Assembly (NCBI RefSeq): GCF_009930875.1
Contig: NZ_CP025249.1
Location: 2,604,001-2,668,000, forward strand
Direction: 5' to 3'
From: Actinomyces sp. 432
GTDB lineage: Bacteria; Actinomycetota; Actinomycetes; Actinomycetales; Actinomycetaceae
DNA length: 64,000 bases
The notes beneath the pieces are model-generated. The model saw nothing but the letters and a program-made list of their open reading frames with translations. It was not told the DNA's origin and did no database searches. Below, piece after piece: positions 42,376 through 63,439 of the stretch (its first letter is position 1; every line of letters starts with the position of its first letter). The translations under genes were made by a program, and so were the position numbers.

Positions 42376-42571
42376 GACGGTTCGCGCTTTCCGGCAACGG
42401 CTCGTCTGTTCCGACGAACGATTCGCTACTTCCAGCGACGGTTCGTACGCTCTGGCCGGCGGTCCGCATGCCCAGGTTGACAGTTCGTACATTCTCACGA
42501 CGGTTCGTATGTTCTGGTCGGCGGTCCGTACTCCGGCGCGACGGTTCGTACCTGGTGGTGACGGTTCGTAC
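42376..42571. repeat. Convergent phased array, type C copy 1, left half (10 units)
   Basis: Ten 12-bp sites related to GACGGTTCGTAC begin at 42376, 42396, 42417, 42437, 42458, 42479, 42499, 42520, 42540 and 42560. The spacing is 20 or 21 bp every time (mean 20.4). Best copies: 42437, 42540, 42560; variant GGCGGTCCGTAC at 42520. The right half lies beyond the IS element at 44050-44203. The period is not a multiple of three, so this is not a coding repeat. Confidence 0.9.
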
Positions 42572-42582
42572 TGTAGGGGTAC

Positions 42583-44038
42583 TGTGATGTCTCATGACTT
42601 CTGGGACTGTTGGATCTCATGACATCTGGGAGTGTCAGAAGTCGTGAGATTCTGGGAGGCCCTGGGTGGGGTTGGGTTGGGGGATGGGCTATGCAGTTTC
42701 GCCGTTCAAGCGTCAGCGCATCATTGAGTTCGACTCGCGGGTTGCGGGTGTGAGCGTGGAGGAGTTCTGCCGGCAGGTGGGGGTCTCGAAGTCCTCGTTC
42801 TACCGGATCCGTAAGCGGGCCAAGCAGGAGGGGCCGGGGGCGGCGCTGGTCGCCCGTTCCAGGGCGCCGCTGCACCCGGCGCGCCGTTGGGATGAGCGGG
42901 TTGATGAGCGTATCGCCCAGGTACGCCGGGAGCTGGTTGCCGACGGGAAGGATGCGGGTCCGTGGTCGGTGTGGTGGGTGCTGTCCGGGGCGGGGGCAAA
43001 CCCGGCCCCGTCGCGGGCGACTATTGCCAGGCGCATGCGGGCCATGGGGCTGGTGGTCCCGGCGCCACGCAAGCGCCCGCGGGTGTCTTTCAAGCGGTTC
43101 ACGCGTACCAGCGCTAACGAGCTGTGGCAGCTGGACGGTATCGAGTGGAGTATCCAGGGGCGTGCGGTGACCATCTACCAGGTCATCGATGACTGCTCCA
43201 GGGTGCTGGTGGCGCTCAAGGCGGCCTGGGGCGGGGAGACGCATGAGGCCACACGCCAGATCCTGTCCGAGGCGTTCGACTCCTGGGGGCGGCCCGCAGC
43301 CATCCTGACCGACAACGGCAGGGCCTTCAACACTCACCGCACCACCGGATTCGGGCGGACAGAGAGGTGGCTGGCCAGCCTGGGGATCCGTCCGATCAGC
43401 GGCGCCATCGGTCACCCACAGACCCAGGGCAAGGTCGAAAGCTCCCATAAGCCCCTCCAGCTGTGGCTGGCAGCGCACCCCTACACCACCCTGGAGGACC
43501 TAAACGCCGGACTGGTGCACTTCACCGCCTACTACAACACCGAGCGCCAGCACCAGGGGCTGGGAATATCCATAACCCCCATACGCGTGTGGCACCAGGT
43601 CCCCCGGGCCCTGCCCAATCCCTCCCCAATCAACCTTGACGCGCTATCCGGGCCTGTGCCGCTGAGCCTGCCGCAGGCTGCCAGCACCGACCCCACCATC
43701 ACCAGCAGACAGTCCCTGAGCAACGGGACCGTGACCTACAAAGGCCGCATCATCTACGTCGGATCCTTCATGGCCGGCCAGACAATCGAGTTCCGCCAGT
43801 ACCCCACCCGCCTGGACCTCTACGACCAGGCCGGAACACACTTCGCCGCGATCCCCTGGCCCCAGCCCACCCAGGCCCAGACCCACAGCCGGGCCACCAT
43901 CAACGCTTCCAAACCACCCAACAGAATCATCAGCAGGCCACCCCGCTCACCCCGCTCCCAACCGTCCCAAAACCCATGAGACTCAACCGTCCCAGAAGTC
44001 ATGAGACTCAACCGTCCCAGAAGTGTGGAGACAGCACA
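42583..44038 (+). mobile_element. IS481-family insertion sequence, intact, with 15-bp target duplication
   Basis: The 1456-bp element starts TGTGATGTCTC at 42583 and ends GAGACAGCACA at 44038. The ends are inverted relative to each other for about 50 bp with mismatches. GTACTGTAGGGGTAC flanks it on both sides (42568-42582 and 44039-44053), a 15-bp target duplication. Inside the ends, copies of TCTCATGACTTCTGGGAC (left) and GTCCCAGAAGTCATGAGA (right) are repeated at about 25-bp steps, likely multiple transposase sites. TGT ends and long duplications fit IS481. Perfect flanks and an intact transposase indicate a recent insertion. Confidence 0.93.
42666..43979 (+). CDS. IS481-family DDE transposase
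   Basis: 437 residues from GTG at 42666 (GGAGG six bases upstream; ATG at 42684 is an alternative). An N-terminal helix-turn-helix (VSVEEFCRQVGVSKSSFYRIR) is followed by the rve integrase core. The catalytic triad is visible as LDGIEW, LTDNGRAF and QGKVESSH, then YYNTERQHQGLG. The C-terminal 100 residues have a small beta domain (VTYKGRIIYVGS) and a basic tail. All motifs are intact, so it should be active. Confidence 0.95.
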   Translation: MGLGWGMGYAVSPFKRQRIIEFDSRVAGVSVEEFCRQVGVSKSSFYRIRKRAKQEGPGAALVARSRAPLHPARRWDERVDERIAQVRRELVADGKDAGPWSVWWVLSGAGANPAPSRATIARRMRAMGLVVPAPRKRPRVSFKRFTRTSANELWQLDGIEWSIQGRAVTIYQVIDDCSRVLVALKAAWGGETHEATRQILSEAFDSWGRPAAILTDNGRAFNTHRTTGFGRTERWLASLGIRPISGAIGHPQTQGKVESSHKPLQLWLAAHPYTTLEDLNAGLVHFTAYYNTERQHQGLGISITPIRVWHQVPRALPNPSPINLDALSGPVPLSLPQAASTDPTITSRQSLSNGTVTYKGRIIYVGSFMAGQTIEFRQYPTRLDLYDQAGTHFAAIPWPQPTQAQTHSRATINASKPPNRIISRPPRSPRSQPSQNP

Positions 44039-44049
44039 GTACTGTAGGG

Positions 44050-44203
44050 GTACGTAGCGTCACCGAAAGGTACGAACCGTCGACCAGAACGTACGAACCG
44101 TCGCGAGAACGTACGAGCCGTCATGCGAAGTGCCGAAGCGTCACCGAAAGGTACGAAGCGTTGATGCGAAGTGACGAACCGTCGCGGGAAGTGCCGAAGC
44201 GTC
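44050..44203. repeat. Convergent phased array, type C copy 1, right half (8 units)
   Basis: Inverted sites related to GTACGAACCGTC end at 44061, 44081, 44102, 44122, 44142, 44162, 44183 and 44203, again 20-21 bp apart. Removing the IS and one target copy joins GACGGTTCGTAC to GTACGTAGCGTC through seven bases, the exact symmetry centre of the array. The outer 74 bp (44130-44203) are about 90% identical to 60617-60690. Confidence 0.9.
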
Positions 44204-56209: not shown

Positions 56210-56266
56210 CGCCCGCGCCGCCGTCACAACGAAGTGAAACCGAGAAGTGAACAGAAAGGACTGTCC

Positions 56267-57805
<1,539 letters not shown>

Positions 57806-57880
57806 GCGCCGACGTCGGGACCGCCCCGTGAGGCCCCACGGGCCACGCATCCCGGCCCGACGCGCGCGCCCCGAGACCGG

Positions 57881-57915
57881 CTGGGGCCCGGCACCACTGC
57901 GGTGCCGGGCCCCAG
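57881..57915 (+). terminator. Perfect 15-bp hairpin after glpK
   Basis: CTGGGGCCCGGCACC (57881-57895), loop ACTGC, GGTGCCGGGCCCCAG (57901-57915). A perfect 15-bp GC-rich stem 75 bp after the glpK stop. There is no U-run, as is common for actinobacterial terminators. Confidence 0.75.
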
Positions 57916-58073
57916 CGCCTACCCGGCAGCAGGCGGTGCCGAATAAGGTTTCCCAACCTTCATGTGACGAGAGCGATTTGATGTGATAATTCAGTGGTCG
58001 CTGTCGTCTCGCGGCCTCACCACGAAGCCGGCGGACTTCGGCACCGTCGTCGCCACCCCTCCCGGAACAGCTC

Positions 58074-59750
58074 ATGACACTCACAGCTCCACTGCTCGCC
58101 ACGGCCTTCACGCCCTCGACGACCGCCGTCGGCGGCAATGTCTTCCTCACCGCGATCATCGGACTGCTGCCGCTGATCGCGTTCTTCGTACTCATGGGGG
58201 CCTTCAAGGTCGCCACGCACTGGTGCGCGATCATCGCCCTGGCACTGTCCGCCGTGATCGCCGTCGTCGCCTTCCACATGCCGGTGGGAATGACGGCACT
58301 ATCGGCCACGCAAGGCCTGGCCATGGGCTTCGTCCCCATCATCTACATCATCATCGCCGCCGTCTGGCTGTACAACCTGACCGAGACCTCCGGCCGCAGC
58401 CAGGACCTCAAGGCCGTGTTCAACGCCATCGGCAAGGGCGACCAGCGCGCCCAGGCCCTGATCGTCGCCTTCTGCTTCTGCGGCCTGCTGGAGGGCCTGG
58501 CCGGCTTCGGCGCCCCGGTAGCCATCACCGCCGCCATGCTGGTGACGCTGGGGGTGCCCAAGCTCAAGGCGGCGATCGCCACCATCGTGGGCAACGGCAT
58601 CTACGTCGGCTTCGGCGCCATGTCCATCCCGGTGACCACCGCCGGGAACCTCGGCGGCCAGGACCCGGTGTCCGTCGCGCAGAACATGGGCCACCTGACC
58701 TCGCTTATCTGCCTGCTGGTTCCCTTCCTGCTGCTGTTCATCCTCGACGGTGCCCGTGGGGTGCGCCAGCTGTGGCCGCTGGCACTGGTAGCCGGGATCG
58801 CGGCCGGCATCGGCCACTTCACTACCCCGAGCCTCTCCTACGAGCTGACCTCGGTGGTGGGCGCCCTGCTGGCCTTTGCCGCCTGCTACCTGTTCCTGCT
58901 GGCCTGGACGCCAAGCACGCCCAGCGAGTACCACTCAGAAATCGCTGCCGCAGACAAGCCCGACCGTGAGCGCGTCATCCTGGCGCTGCTGCCCTACGTG
59001 CTGGTGGTGGTCATCATCGCCATCACCAAGCTGTGGAAGCTCGGCGTGGACCTGTCCGCCGTCCTGTCCGGCACCGACATCAAGATCCAGTGGCCGGGCG
59101 TGTACGGCAACCTGCTCACCGCCGACGGTGAGGCCTCCACCTCCGCCATCTACAACCTGCAGACGCTATCCAACCCGGGCACCTGGATCCTGCTTACGGC
59201 GGTGATCGTCTGCATCGTCTACGGCACCCGCTCCTCGGGGGGACGCTTCCAGACCTCCATCGGCGCCATGTTCGCAGTACTGCCGCGCACCATCTACACC
59301 CTGCGCATGTCCATCCTCACCATCGCCTCCGTGATGGCGCTGGCCTACGTCATGAACTTCTCCGGCCAGACCACGGCTGTCGGTGCCGCCCTGGCCACCA
59401 CCGGTGCCGCCTTCGCCTTCCTCTCCCCCGTGCTCGGCTGGATCGGCACGGCGGTGGCGGGCTCGGCCACCAGCGCCGGGGCACTGTTCGCCAACCTGCA
59501 GGCCACCGCCGCCGCGCAGGCAAACCTGGACCCGCGCATCCTGCTGGCCGCCAACACCATCGGCGGTGGCCTGGGCAAGATCGTCTCCCCGCAGAACCTG
59601 GCGGTGGTCACCACCGCCGTGGACGCCCCCGGCACCGACGCGGAGATCCTCAAGAAGGCCGCCCCCTACTCCCTCGGCCTGCTGCTGGTGCTGTGCTGCC
59701 TGGTGCTGGCCGCCTCCCAGGGCTGGCTGGGCGCCTACATGCCTGCGTGA
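58074..59750 (+). CDS. lldP: L-lactate permease (LctP family)
   Basis: Membrane transporter importing L-lactate (some members also glycolate) with protons. 558 residues, about 13 hydrophobic segments. Family landmarks include GLLEGLAGFGAPVAITAAMLV and the C-terminal LSPVLGWIGTAVAGSATSAGALFANLQ and NTIGGGLGKIVSPQNLAV. ATG at 58074 is preceded only by CCCGGAAC. It is co-oriented with lutABC, which would oxidise the imported lactate. Confidence 0.95.
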   Translation: MTLTAPLLATAFTPSTTAVGGNVFLTAIIGLLPLIAFFVLMGAFKVATHWCAIIALALSAVIAVVAFHMPVGMTALSATQGLAMGFVPIIYIIIAAVWLYNLTETSGRSQDLKAVFNAIGKGDQRAQALIVAFCFCGLLEGLAGFGAPVAITAAMLVTLGVPKLKAAIATIVGNGIYVGFGAMSIPVTTAGNLGGQDPVSVAQNMGHLTSLICLLVPFLLLFILDGARGVRQLWPLALVAGIAAGIGHFTTPSLSYELTSVVGALLAFAACYLFLLAWTPSTPSEYHSEIAAADKPDRERVILALLPYVLVVVIIAITKLWKLGVDLSAVLSGTDIKIQWPGVYGNLLTADGEASTSAIYNLQTLSNPGTWILLTAVIVCIVYGTRSSGGRFQTSIGAMFAVLPRTIYTLRMSILTIASVMALAYVMNFSGQTTAVGAALATTGAAFAFLSPVLGWIGTAVAGSATSAGALFANLQATAAAQANLDPRILLAANTIGGGLGKIVSPQNLAVVTTAVDAPGTDAEILKKAAPYSLGLLLVLCCLVLAASQGWLGAYMPA

Positions 59751-59884
59751 CGGTGGCGCCGGCGAGGTCGACCGGGGGCCGTTTGTCGGATACGGCCGCT
59801 TCCTCCCCGGTAACTCCGCGTTCGCGGTGGCCTCGGGAGGTGGGGGCCGTAGCCGGGCTCCCATGGTCGTACTCGGGCTGGCGG

Positions 59885-60463
59885 GTGTGCGGCCGACTCC
59901 CGAGGTGCGGACTTCTCAGCGCACTGGCTGTCTGCATGGCTCTTCTTCTTGCAGCCTGCTCGGTTACTCCTCTCCTGGGTCGGGACGCCCAGCCGGACAG
60001 CACGCAGGATGCGCGCTTCGCCGAATTCACGCAGTACGTTCCCGACCCACTGACCGTCCAGACCTCCCTGGACTCGGTCACCAGCCGTATGCCGGCCATG
60101 GGCGCCACAGGCGTGCACTTCGTCGGGCAGTACCGGGTCAACAAGGGCGAGTGGCCGCTGCCGGAACCCGATCGCCCCTACTGGTTCCACGCCGTCGTCG
60201 AAGTCGACCAGCCCACCAGCCGGGCTTTGGGCGACGCCGCGACTACCACGCCCGACCTGCTGCCGCCGATCCACCCCGACCTGCACCAGTACGTCCCCCA
60301 GGACTGCACCTTCGTCACCATCCCGGAGTCCGACGCGAACCGGATTCTTGACACCGAGAACGCCGACCTCGTGGGCGGCTCGGAGCGGTTCACCGTGGAT
60401 GAGCTGGCACTGTCCACCGACTGCGACCTCGTCGTCATGGTCGGCACCGGGCACTACTCCTGA
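59885..60463 (+). CDS. Lipoprotein of unknown function
   Basis: About 192 residues from GTG at 59885, the best start available (no clear ribosome site; an upstream in-frame GTG near 59838 is an alternative). The signal ends in ALLLAACSV (lipobox LLAAC). The mature part is mixed alpha/beta with GVHFVGQYRVNKGEWPLPEPDRPYW and one further Cys pair (PQDCTFVTIPESDANRIL, STDCDLVVMVGTGHYS). I do not recognise the family. Confidence 0.7.
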   Translation: MCGRLPRCGLLSALAVCMALLLAACSVTPLLGRDAQPDSTQDARFAEFTQYVPDPLTVQTSLDSVTSRMPAMGATGVHFVGQYRVNKGEWPLPEPDRPYWFHAVVEVDQPTSRALGDAATTTPDLLPPIHPDLHQYVPQDCTFVTIPESDANRILDTENADLVGGSERFTVDELALSTDCDLVVMVGTGHYS

Positions 60464-60537
60464 CGGCGTAACACCATGCTCAAGGCGGGGCTCGTAGTGG
60501 GGTGGCATTCCCGTAGGGGTCCCTTAAGCGGCGGGAA

Positions 60538-60690
60538 GACGCTTCGTACCCTGACCCGACGGTTCGTACTTTCCGGTGGACGCTTCGTACCCCGAGCCGA
60601 CGGTTCGTACCCTAAAGTGCCGAACCGTCACCGCAAGGTACGAAGCGCTGATGCGAAGTGCCGAAGCGTCGGCGGAAGTGCCGAAGCGTC
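60538..60690. repeat. Convergent phased array, type C copy 2 (4 + 4 units, uninterrupted)
   Basis: Direct sites begin at 60538 (GACGCTTCGTAC), 60558 (GACGGTTCGTAC), 60579 (GACGCTTCGTAC) and 60599 (GACGGTTCGTAC), alternating C and G at position 5. Inverted sites end at 60629 (GTGCCGAACCGTC), 60649 (GTACGAAGCGCT), 60670 and 60690 (GTGCCGAAGCGTC). All steps are 20 or 21 bp. This is the undisturbed form of the array that the IS element splits at 42583. It lies between two genes on the plus strand. Confidence 0.92.
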
Positions 60691-61037
60691 GTCGCCGGGT
60701 GGCCAACCGCAAGCAGCCGCACGCCCCGGACACCACCCCGGCCTCCACGTCCGCATCCTCGAACCGGAGGAGTCAGCCGATGACATTGTCGACCGCACGC
60801 GGCAACAGGTGAGGAAAACCGAAGGCCGGAGTTGCGGAATGTGACCCGCAACGCGCCCGCAGCGGTGCCCGAGGAGGCCCCCCACCACCCCGAACTACCC
60901 CCACTTTTCCGCGAGATTTCAGCCTTCAACCAGAGAGTTTGAAGGTGCTCGCACACACCGGTGGAGACCTTCCCGCCGCCGTCCTAACCTGGTCACGGTT
61001 ACGCCAATGCATCTCGTGGAGGAAAGGACCTCACACC
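60691..61037. other. Spacer between array and lutA
   Basis: No supported gene. GGAGGAG at 60768 followed by ATG at 60780 opens only ten codons. CCTCCACGTCCGCATCCTCGA near 60745 resembles sequence after the other type C array. The lutA promoter must lie in the last 150 bases; nothing clear. Confidence 0.35.
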
Positions 61038-61838
61038 GTGCGCGTCGCACTATTCGCCACGTGTCTGGCAGACACGATGTTCCCCCAGGCCGCACAGGCC
61101 ACCGTCAGTATTCTCGAGCGGCTCGGCCACGAGGTGGTCTTCCCCCAGGGGCAGGCCTGCTGCGGCCAGATGCACGCCAACACCGGCTACTTCAAGCAGG
61201 CCGCCTCCATCGTCGCCAACCACGTCAAGACCTTCGAGCCGGTCCTGGACGGGGAGTGGGACGCCGTCGTCGTCCCCTCCGGGTCCTGCGCGGGCGCCGC
61301 CCGGCACGAGCAGCGCCTGGTGGCTGAGCACGTGGGCGACTCCTCCCTGGTTAAGCGCGTGGACGCGCTGAGCAACTACACCTACGACATCTCCGAGTTC
61401 CTCATTGACGTGCTCGGACTGGAGGACGTAGGCGCCTACTTTCCGCACACGGTCACCTACCACCCCACCTGCCACTCCATGCGGGTGGCGCACGTGGGGG
61501 ACCGCCCCTACCGGCTGCTGCGCGCAGTCGAGGGCCTGACCCTCATCGAGCTTCCCGATGAGAAGGTCTGCTGCGGATTCGGCGGCACCTTCTCCATCAA
61601 GAACTCCGACACCTCCACCGCCATGGTGGCGGACAAGGCCGCCAACGTCATGTCCACCGGCGCCGAGGTGCTGTGCACCGGTGACTACTCCTGCCTGATG
61701 AACATCGGCGGTGCCCTGTCCCGCGTCAACTCCGGCGTGCGCGTAATGCACCTGGCGGAGATCCTCGCCTCCACCAAGGAGGCCCCCTTTGAAGGCCACG
61801 CCTCCTTCCAGCCCAGCAACGACCAGGTGAGGTTGTGA
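61038..61838 (+). CDS. lutA: L-lactate oxidation complex protein LutA (CCG-domain Fe-S subunit)
   Basis: Subunit of the LutABC complex that oxidises L-lactate to pyruvate. Two CCG motifs (QACCGQMHANTGY and KVCCGFGGTFSIK) bind iron-sulfur centres; also HPTCHSMR and GDYSCLMNIGG. GTG at 61038 follows GGAGGAAAGG. 266 residues, slightly longer than the usual 240 owing to a C-terminal tail (FEGHASFQPSND). It overlaps lutB by 4 bp. Confidence 0.94.
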   Translation: MRVALFATCLADTMFPQAAQATVSILERLGHEVVFPQGQACCGQMHANTGYFKQAASIVANHVKTFEPVLDGEWDAVVVPSGSCAGAARHEQRLVAEHVGDSSLVKRVDALSNYTYDISEFLIDVLGLEDVGAYFPHTVTYHPTCHSMRVAHVGDRPYRLLRAVEGLTLIELPDEKVCCGFGGTFSIKNSDTSTAMVADKAANVMSTGAEVLCTGDYSCLMNIGGALSRVNSGVRVMHLAEILASTKEAPFEGHASFQPSNDQVRL

Positions 61839-63439
61839 CGACTCAAATGACCCAGACATTTCTAGGCATGCCCGCCTCCGCCCCCGACGAGCAGCCCCAC
61901 ACCGGCGGCTGGCGCACCAACGTCGAGGTCCCGCAGGACACGCTGCGCTGGGGCCACACCTTCCCCGAGGGAGCACACAAGACCCTTGCCAACACCCAGA
62001 TGCGCCGCAACCTGGGCCACGCCACGCGCACCATCCGCAACAAGCGGCAAATGCGCGTGGACGAGATGCCGGACTGGGAGGACCTGCGCAACGCGGCGGA
62101 GGCCGTCAAGTTCGAGGTCGCCTCCCGCCTGCCCGAGCTGCTGGAGCAGTTCGAGGCGAATGTGACCGCCAACGGCGGCATCGTCCACTGGGCGCGCGAC
62201 GCCGCGGAAGCCAACCGGATCGTCGCCGACATCATCAAGTCCAAGGGCGTGGACGACGTCGTCAAGGTCAAGTCCATGGCCACCCAGGAGACCAACCTCA
62301 ACGAGTACCTGGCAGACGAGGGCATCACCGCCCACGAGACCGACCTGGCGGAGATGATCGTCCAGCTCGCCGACGACATGCCCTCCCACATCGTGGTCCC
62401 GGCGATCCACCGCAACCGCTCCGAGGTGCGCGGTATCTTCCTGGACCGCATGGGGGACGCGCCCGAGGACCTGTCGGACCAGCCCGAGGAGCTCGCCGGG
62501 GCCGCCCGCGCCCACCTGCGCCGCAAGTTCCTGCACGCCTCCGTGGCCGTCTCCGGCACCAACATGGGCATCGCCGAGACCGGCACCGTCTCCATCTTCG
62601 AGTCCGAGGGCAACGGCCGCATGTGCCTGACCCTGCCGGACACGCTGATCACGCTGATGGGCATCGAGAAGCTGGTACCGCGCTACCAGGATGCGGAGAT
62701 CTTCACCCAGCTGCTGCCGCGCTCCGCCACCGGCGAGCGCATGAACCCCTACACCTCCATGTGGACGGGTGTCACCCCCGGCGACGGCCCCCAGGAGTTC
62801 CATCTGATCCTCATGGACAACGGCCGCACGAAGGTACTCACCGACCCGATCGGCAGGCAGGCACTGGCCTGCATCCGCTGCGGCTCGTGCATGAACATCT
62901 GCCCCGTCTACCAGCACACCGGCGGGCACGCCTACGGCTCGGTCTACCCCGGCCCGATCGGCTCAATCCTCACCCCCCAGCTCACGCAGGGGCTCGACGA
63001 CGACGATCCGGTCCACACCCTGCCCTTCGCCTCCTCCCTGTGCGGGGCCTGCGCGGAGGTGTGCCCGGTCAAGATCGACATCCCCACCATCCTGATTCAC
63101 CTGCGGGCCCGCAGCGTGGACGTCAAGCGCCGCCTGGTGCCGGACATGTGGGACGTGGCCATGAACACCACCGGCCCGCTCATGTCCAGCGGAAAGGCCT
63201 GGCTGGCGGCCACCGAGGGGGTCAAGGCCACCCGCCTGCTCGGGAAGGACGGCAGGATCGGCGCCCTGCCCTTCCCCGCCTCCCTGTGGACGCGCTCGCG
63301 CGACCTGCCCGTCGCCCCCAAGGAGTCGCTGCGGCACTGGTGGAAGCGCACCCACCCCGAGGGCATCACTCCTGCCCGCCCGGCAACCGACGCCGCAGCT
63401 GACGCCACCGCCCAGCCCACCACCGAGGAGAACCGCTGA
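61835..63439 (+). CDS. lutB: L-lactate oxidation complex protein LutB
   Basis: Iron-sulfur electron-transfer subunit. An N-terminal LUD domain (VKVKSMATQETNLNEYL, SVAVSGTNMGIAETGT) is followed by two ferredoxin-type clusters (CIRCGSCMNICPVYQH and CGACAEVCPVKID) and a C-terminal tail of about 60 residues rich in Ala/Pro. 534 residues, longer than the usual 470-490 at both ends. GTG at 61835 overlaps the lutA stop; its own stop overlaps lutC. Confidence 0.95.
   Translation: MTTQMTQTFLGMPASAPDEQPHTGGWRTNVEVPQDTLRWGHTFPEGAHKTLANTQMRRNLGHATRTIRNKRQMRVDEMPDWEDLRNAAEAVKFEVASRLPELLEQFEANVTANGGIVHWARDAAEANRIVADIIKSKGVDDVVKVKSMATQETNLNEYLADEGITAHETDLAEMIVQLADDMPSHIVVPAIHRNRSEVRGIFLDRMGDAPEDLSDQPEELAGAARAHLRRKFLHASVAVSGTNMGIAETGTVSIFESEGNGRMCLTLPDTLITLMGIEKLVPRYQDAEIFTQLLPRSATGERMNPYTSMWTGVTPGDGPQEFHLILMDNGRTKVLTDPIGRQALACIRCGSCMNICPVYQHTGGHAYGSVYPGPIGSILTPQLTQGLDDDDPVHTLPFASSLCGACAEVCPVKIDIPTILIHLRARSVDVKRRLVPDMWDVAMNTTGPLMSSGKAWLAATEGVKATRLLGKDGRIGALPFPASLWTRSRDLPVAPKESLRHWWKRTHPEGITPARPATDAAADATAQPTTEENR

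Follow-up and report, generated by a model that had tools for sequence, protein, structure and literature searches.

The locus and its array of facing sites

The array described here lies in a 64-kb window of the 3.14-Mb genome of Actinomyces sp. 432, the window being the whole stretch of DNA that was analysed (64,000 nucleotides, in which a window coordinate equals the genome coordinate minus 2604000). It occupies the gap between a called gene and a lutA-like gene (Table 1), and the surrounding region (56234-63439) contains genes for glycerol kinase, a lactate permease and lactate oxidation (lutB). The lutB gene, at 61835-63439, is a TIGR00273 match, and the gene ahead of it is presumably lutA, a name that we take from its position. 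The upstream neighbour, queried as a longer ORF (59693-60463), has no match in Pfam or NCBIfam. A second array, at ~42.4-44.2 kb, is split by an insertion sequence (IS).

Table 1. Coordinates of the two arrays, the neighbouring genes and the insertion sequence in the window.
Feature	Position	Strand	Remarks
Second array, left half, several diverged sites	42418..42582	+	ends in 15-bp target duplication 42568-42582
IS481-like insertion sequence, 1456 bp, TGT...ACA ends	42583..44038	+	at the centre of the second array
Transposase ORF, 437 aa	42666..43979	+	Pfam rve; NCBIfam IS481 199.9 bits, cut-off 224
Second array, right half	44039..44203	-	begins with 15-bp target duplication 44039-44053
Upstream neighbour, called gene, 176 codons	59936..60463	+	stop 75 bp short of the array
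Left half, four sites GACGNTTCGTAC	60538..60610	+	starts 60538, 60558, 60579, 60599
7-bp centre between innermost 12-bp sites	60611..60617	.	13 bases from TTCG core to CGAA core
Right half, four inverted sites	60618..60690	-	ends 60629, 60649, 60670, 60690; core GACGNTTCG
Downstream neighbour, lutA-like	61038..61838	+	precedes lutB

Site mapping of the window recovers the eight sites at the positions given by an earlier, sequence-only reading of this DNA, four in one orientation followed by four inverted ones, and the flip that it placed in the middle is borne out. The array is 153 bp long and its sites advance in steps of 20-21-20 bp, then 30 bp across the centre, then 20-21-20 bp. The identity of the two halves holds in part: both share the core GACGNTTCG, but the full site GACG[C/G]TTCGTAC is absent from the right half, where three of the four sites read GACG[C/G]TTCGGCA (i.e. 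GACGNTTCG and then GGCA) and the fourth, whose end is at 60649, has two mismatches (GCGCTTCGTACC).

The pattern GACG.TTCG has 17 matches on both strands of the window, every one of them in this array or in the second one; 100 first-order Markov resamplings gave a mean of 2.84 and at most 8. Genome-wide, a two-site pattern is matched 57+57 times and the reversed control pattern 1+2 times.

Copies, spacing and conservation

The genome contains at least 27 arrays (60 pieces among the matches listed by a similarity search, then grouped), 26 of them from the grouped matches and one being the second array of the window. They were found by similarity alone, without a spacing rule. None overlaps a script-called gene, which agrees with the earlier exclusion of a coding repeat. 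Each unit consists of the core GACGNTTCG and a weakly conserved spacer, and within genomes there are near-identical, lineage-specific subfamilies.

Among the 561 same-strand steps of 116 non-redundant arrays from this and other genomes, 491 measure 20 or 21 bp; a further 54 are 40-42 bp and eight are 61-62 bp, which are missing sites on the same grid, and eight have other values. Over two steps the distance is mostly 41 bp (253 cases), then 40 bp (29) and 42 bp (four), an architecture of four helix turns per 41 bp with 20.4-bp steps. The centre step is 30 bp in 54 of 100 arrays and 50 bp in 43. These spacing counts are partly selected, as many loci were fetched by patterns demanding steps of 20-22 bp, and they are non-independent since arrays share ancestry. 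Sites per half vary from 2 to 9 or more (nine consecutive sites in one half of L119, from genome G024); the inner sites hold the grid and the outer ones have diverged, the centre being fixed and the outer ends variable. Copies elsewhere in this and related genomes retain both the spacing and the central flip, and the proposal that periodic sites lie on one helix face gains support from the 20-21 bp steps. A CRISPR was rejected, as it had been before, on the grounds that orientation flips and that the 8-9-bp spacers recur between copies.

Orthologous placement in another species is seen for at least nine of the 27 arrays (flank matches, judged by eye). Between orthologous arrays the 8-base core differs at 48 of 1944 positions (2.5%), the rest of the unit at 398 of 2856 (13.9%) and the flanks at 2169 of 11754 (18.5%). 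The sample comprises four orthologous sets with 15 sequences, in which sites were defined in a third sequence and two others compared; positions are counted repeatedly and the sequences are related, hence no p-value is attached. The core is least divergent in each set taken separately (0, 1.4, 4.8 and 6.6%). Because the core changes far less than the rest of the unit and the flanks, selection can be said to act on the sites.

Compared with three orthologues, the window array has its centre in reverse orientation, and other orthologous arrays differ by entire units or halves, which points to recombination of the copies with one another. Upstream of lutA, genomes G025 and G028 have no array, and their intergenic sequence there does not align. 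At another locus, beside genes that we take to be folD and glyA, two arrays flank an ORF (L118:3147-4510; also L109, L163, L238, L239 and L240), which in L118 has no Pfam match; the stretch between the arrays is 1.37 kb long. In the present genome one array occupies this place and matches both of the flanking ones, as if these had recombined and deleted the ORF.

Seven of 49 Actinomyces genomes have at least 34 matches each to the two-site pattern in its GACGNTTCG form, and five others have one or two, the same as the control. At family level a three-site pattern matches nine of 213 genomes, namely the same seven and two with a single match. Among named genomes, 39 of 41 matching stretches come from Actinomyces glycerinitolerans, A. 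succiniciruminis, A. ruminis and A. ruminicola. Two of the 41 stretches, from metagenome-assembled genomes (MAGs), were rejected as members: L147, labelled Tannerella, which carries a direct 20-bp tandem array, CCATGACTTCTGACGATTCG (L147:1600-1780), and which we assume from the style of its isolate name to be of termite-gut origin, and L149, a Micrococcales MAG contig with a short palindrome.

A smaller, two-plus-two form with the core TCGTA and the same spacing (TCGTA N15 TCG N13 CGA N15 TACGA, at most one mismatch) is found in 22 of the 49 Actinomyces genomes, in four of these once only, and the control has none. Without mismatches, this pattern occurs in six of the order's 396 genomes; genus g43, of another family, accounts for three of these. 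A 4+3 array of a different unit, GTTGAYCTCGT every 20 bp, is present at L277:1480-1620 (G027); a motif-blind scan of 11 loci recovered it again and gave nothing convincing elsewhere. Phage and plasmid records yielded no match to the array, and six stretches of viral contigs fit the three-site pattern, none of them with a two-sided array of this kind (by eye).

Gene ends, folding and the insertion sequence

The 27 arrays of this genome lie in 10 convergent, 14 tandem and 3 divergent gaps, compared with 6 convergent, 33 tandem and 20 divergent among the other gaps of more than 150 bp in the same stretches. Convergent gaps are therefore favoured over divergent ones (Fisher p 0.002), which answers the earlier proposal to map copies against gene ends; the tandem share (14/27) is no larger than that of the other gaps (33/59), and many arrays are hundreds of bp away from the nearest gene end. 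The 38 two-plus-two elements examined elsewhere show the same preference: 14 are in convergent, 17 in tandem and 4 in divergent gaps, two lie at an edge and one falls within a called gene, compared with 5 convergent, 8 tandem and 9 divergent gaps that are free of the element (convergent versus divergent, p 0.029). Of those in convergent or tandem gaps, 29 of 31 lie within 70 bp of a stop codon. A conserved two-plus-two element containing TATATTA lies ahead of a gene that is presumably hemC in four species (L271, L272, L283 and L284, near 1500); it directly precedes the gene in G018, G020 and G040 (L271, L272 and L284), and the gene call in G039 (L283) gives a divergent gap.

The convergent bias, together with a length of ~150 bp, a symmetrical centre and two phased arms, would also suit a site that DNA gyrase prefers, at the downstream ends of transcription units, as is reported for BIME-2. 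According to the excerpts of PMC6379681 drawn on here, the gyrase motif covers 130 bp, with a central part and two periodic arms of phased 10-bp G/C variation, and is enriched downstream of highly transcribed operons and in BIME-2. On that account length and place are alike, whereas the conserved core is found only here. The A/T autocorrelation, calculated for the window array alone, exceeds 0.2 at lags 20 and 41 but not at 10, and a degenerate G/C phase would leave the conserved 8-base core and its change between species unexplained. We regard gyrase targeting as improbable.

Transcribed, the array strand has a strong predicted fold (-89.7 kcal/mol, z -5.96 versus shuffles; z -4.04 when folded as DNA). 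As a folding prediction this bears out the earlier suggestion of a long RNA hairpin; that mirrored bases are kept complementary is less clear in the array clade. Any inverted array would fold so; if pairing were selected, the spacers and the free core base should match within a copy. In genus g43 spacer pairing is indeed higher within copies than between them (0.915 versus 0.785, reached by 0 of 5000 permutations; 11 of 25 copies), and in G003 and G004 it is weakly so (28 of 2000 permutations; all 10 copies). In four other genomes the within-copy value is not above the between-copy value, being reached by 473 (G010, of the array clade), 618 (G006), 1280 (G012) and 2000 (G001) of 2000 permutations; 28 of 30 copies were used for G001, 11 of 12 for G006, 9 of 11 for G010, 8 of 8 for G012 and 0 of 4 for G018, and apart from G018 the omitted copies consist of near-doubles and a single copy with a mismatch. 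At mirrored sites the free core base is matched in 48 of 55 pairs at rank 1 (48.3 in shuffles), 39 of 94 at rank 2 (33.2), 63 of 79 at rank 3 (58.4, 37 of 2000 shuffles) and 38 of 49 at rank 4 (34.1, 67 of 2000), by shuffles that make no correction for the relatedness of copies. Mirrored bases are at most weakly matched in the array clade and are matched in g43.

An element acting as RNA, in the form of a long 3'-end hairpin that ends transcription both ways or protects the mRNA end, would account for the fold, for the closeness of two-plus-two elements to stop codons and for the matched spacers of g43 and of G003 and G004. It is nonetheless unlikely, given that spacer pairing is no higher within copies in the other four genomes, that the free core base is not clearly matched and that the core letters are conserved, which pairing alone would not require. 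Rfam likewise offers no family for it, with nothing at gathering level in the 64-kb window and, in eight other loci, only two tRNAs above the gathering score and five matches below it. The conserved letters and the helical phase would fit a reading as double-stranded DNA better than one as RNA.

The transposase of the insertion sequence scores under the NCBIfam cut-off for IS481, yet this is the best of five models. In this genome six near-identical copies of the element are inserted in arrays, five of them centrally and the sixth (L025) one unit away. Three of these copies have identical 15-bp flanks and two have flanks with a single-base difference; in L024 the flanks are inverted, suggestive of later rearrangement. 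Relatives at 61% identity occur in G021 (four copies) and G001 (one), with a broken copy in G045, and in these genomes, which have no GACGNTTCG arrays, they sit at the centre of two-plus-two elements (by eye). Four of the five intact G021 and G001 copies are flanked by a 15-bp repeat and the fifth (L198) by one of 14 bp with one mismatch; the flanks of the broken copy repeat 15 bp with one mismatch. Altogether 11 of the 12 copies with both ends, from four species, occupy the centre, and all seven single ends at contig edges (G010 and G041) lie 23 bases from an inner site, a distance shared with the window copy.

More distant relatives, at 44% identity or less (L184, L185, L195 and L188), are not clearly within such elements; adjoining one of them, the 44%-identical transposase copy of G047, a 22-bp direct repeat occurs twice (L185:2729-2790). 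The ends of the IS481-like element itself (42583-44038) carry repeats of ~25 bp, of the type ATGACTTCTGGGACGGTTGAGTCTC (by eye). Since four of the seven array genomes (G024, G025, G028 and G029) have no match to the transposase at E 1e-30, the arrays do not rely on this element.

The arrays might themselves be MITE-like selfish elements, moved in trans by a putative transposase whose binding repeats are the sites. The near-identical subfamilies within genomes would be in keeping with this, and the 21-bp unit slightly resembles, by eye, the 25-bp repeats at the IS481-like ends. We consider it quite unlikely, however: the fixed point of an array is its centre and not its outer ends, the number of sites per half varies, the arrays show no target duplication and the two genomes without the lutA array no clean empty site, and a third of the arrays or more are orthologously placed in another species. 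Being bounded by TGT...ACA ends of its own and a 15-bp duplication, the IS481-like element is an insert, and an IS21 transposase had no match at E 1e-20 in the seven array genomes.

Interpretation and comparison with known systems

The element is real, conserved and repeated; it is of a REP-like kind and has a two-turn architecture of unusual strictness. With moderate confidence we read it as a dispersed intergenic REP/BIME-like repeat family with its own plan, whose sites are read as double-stranded DNA by a putative protein. Because the sites are about two helix turns apart and far less changed than their surroundings, a protein probably binds them, and the platform for a DNA-binding protein proposed by the sequence-only reading remains the best reading. 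The sites, whose conserved core is GACGNTTCG here and TCGTA in other species, face each other over a fixed centre and would be bound on one helix face by a sequence-specific protein, which would load outward from the inner pair of sites, close to where transcription units end. The symmetrical, non-coding centre would in turn serve the insertion sequence as a safe target.

A more far-reaching possibility, put forward tentatively, is a chromosomal protein-binding code at dozens of intergenic places in Actinomyces and a second genus, in which the architecture (20.4-bp steps and a fixed centre) stays the same and the site sequence varies between species, as if protein and sites co-evolve, and which might serve as a landmark of the nucleoid or of transcription ends. 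If a protein does bind, the 27 or more natural copies, together with species of the same architecture and other sites, would form a system for finding it, and the co-evolution of a DNA-binding protein with its sites could be followed. It would also be a REP-like family whose host genomes show no match to the known REP transposase, and the IS481-like element would join those that land in such repeats. Among the papers listed by literature searches, chiefly from open-access journals, none names such an element in its title or abstract opening.

Plasmid iterons and parC/parS-type partition arrays are short protein-binding repeats at about two-turn spacing. The present family differs from them in its dispersed chromosomal copies, at least 27 in number, and in its central flip; the neighbouring genes were called by script and are mostly unnamed, so that a rep or par gene may stand beside some copy.

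The insertion sequence shares with the IS481 family its TGT...ACA ends, an integrase-type core and the 15-bp duplication, family duplications being of 2-15 bp in the part of PMC10045372 cited here, and differs in its HMM score below the NCBIfam cut-off and in its strong target preference. Like the REP-targeting insertion sequences (IS1397, IS621, ISPsy8, ISPpu9 and others) in the portion of PMC1525189 referred to, it occupies one fixed point of a repeated palindrome. That survey, in which the word IS481 is absent, names the IS3, IS110, IS4, IS256 and IS5 families; the element here is IS481-like and its target is the centre of a multi-site array.

The sequence-only reading recognised no named element with this plan. 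This does not stand as far as genomic habits are concerned, which match those of REP/BIME: dispersed copies, gene 3' ends, species-specific subfamilies and use as an IS target. As described in PMC3733652, whose main text lacks the string 'Actino', REP/BIME are inverted units scattered between genes, often as two facing units of different type, found mainly in convergent or tandem gaps near gene ends and forming species-specific families. Measured against that description, including its GTAG and CGTC super-families, the many dispersed intergenic copies and the 3'-end bias, with convergent favoured over divergent gaps, are the same here. The differences are that the core recurs at fixed 20-21-bp steps, with nine or more sites in some halves, and that the unit has no 8-9-bp stem of its own (profile judged by eye), its inverted partner being another unit across the centre. 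A REP unit, by contrast, is a 20-40-bp hairpin in its own right, with an unpaired GTAG or CGTC tag. The units here do end in CGTC on the opposite strand, without a REP-type stem. The RAYT transposase (Y1, PF01797), which goes with the GTAG type, matched in 0 of 49 genomes, and in 5 of 14 for the control. Full membership in REP/BIME was rejected, since the self-paired tagged unit and the RAYT transposase are both missing. Although not classed as a member, the array resembles, by analogy, a REP-type landmark in its working.
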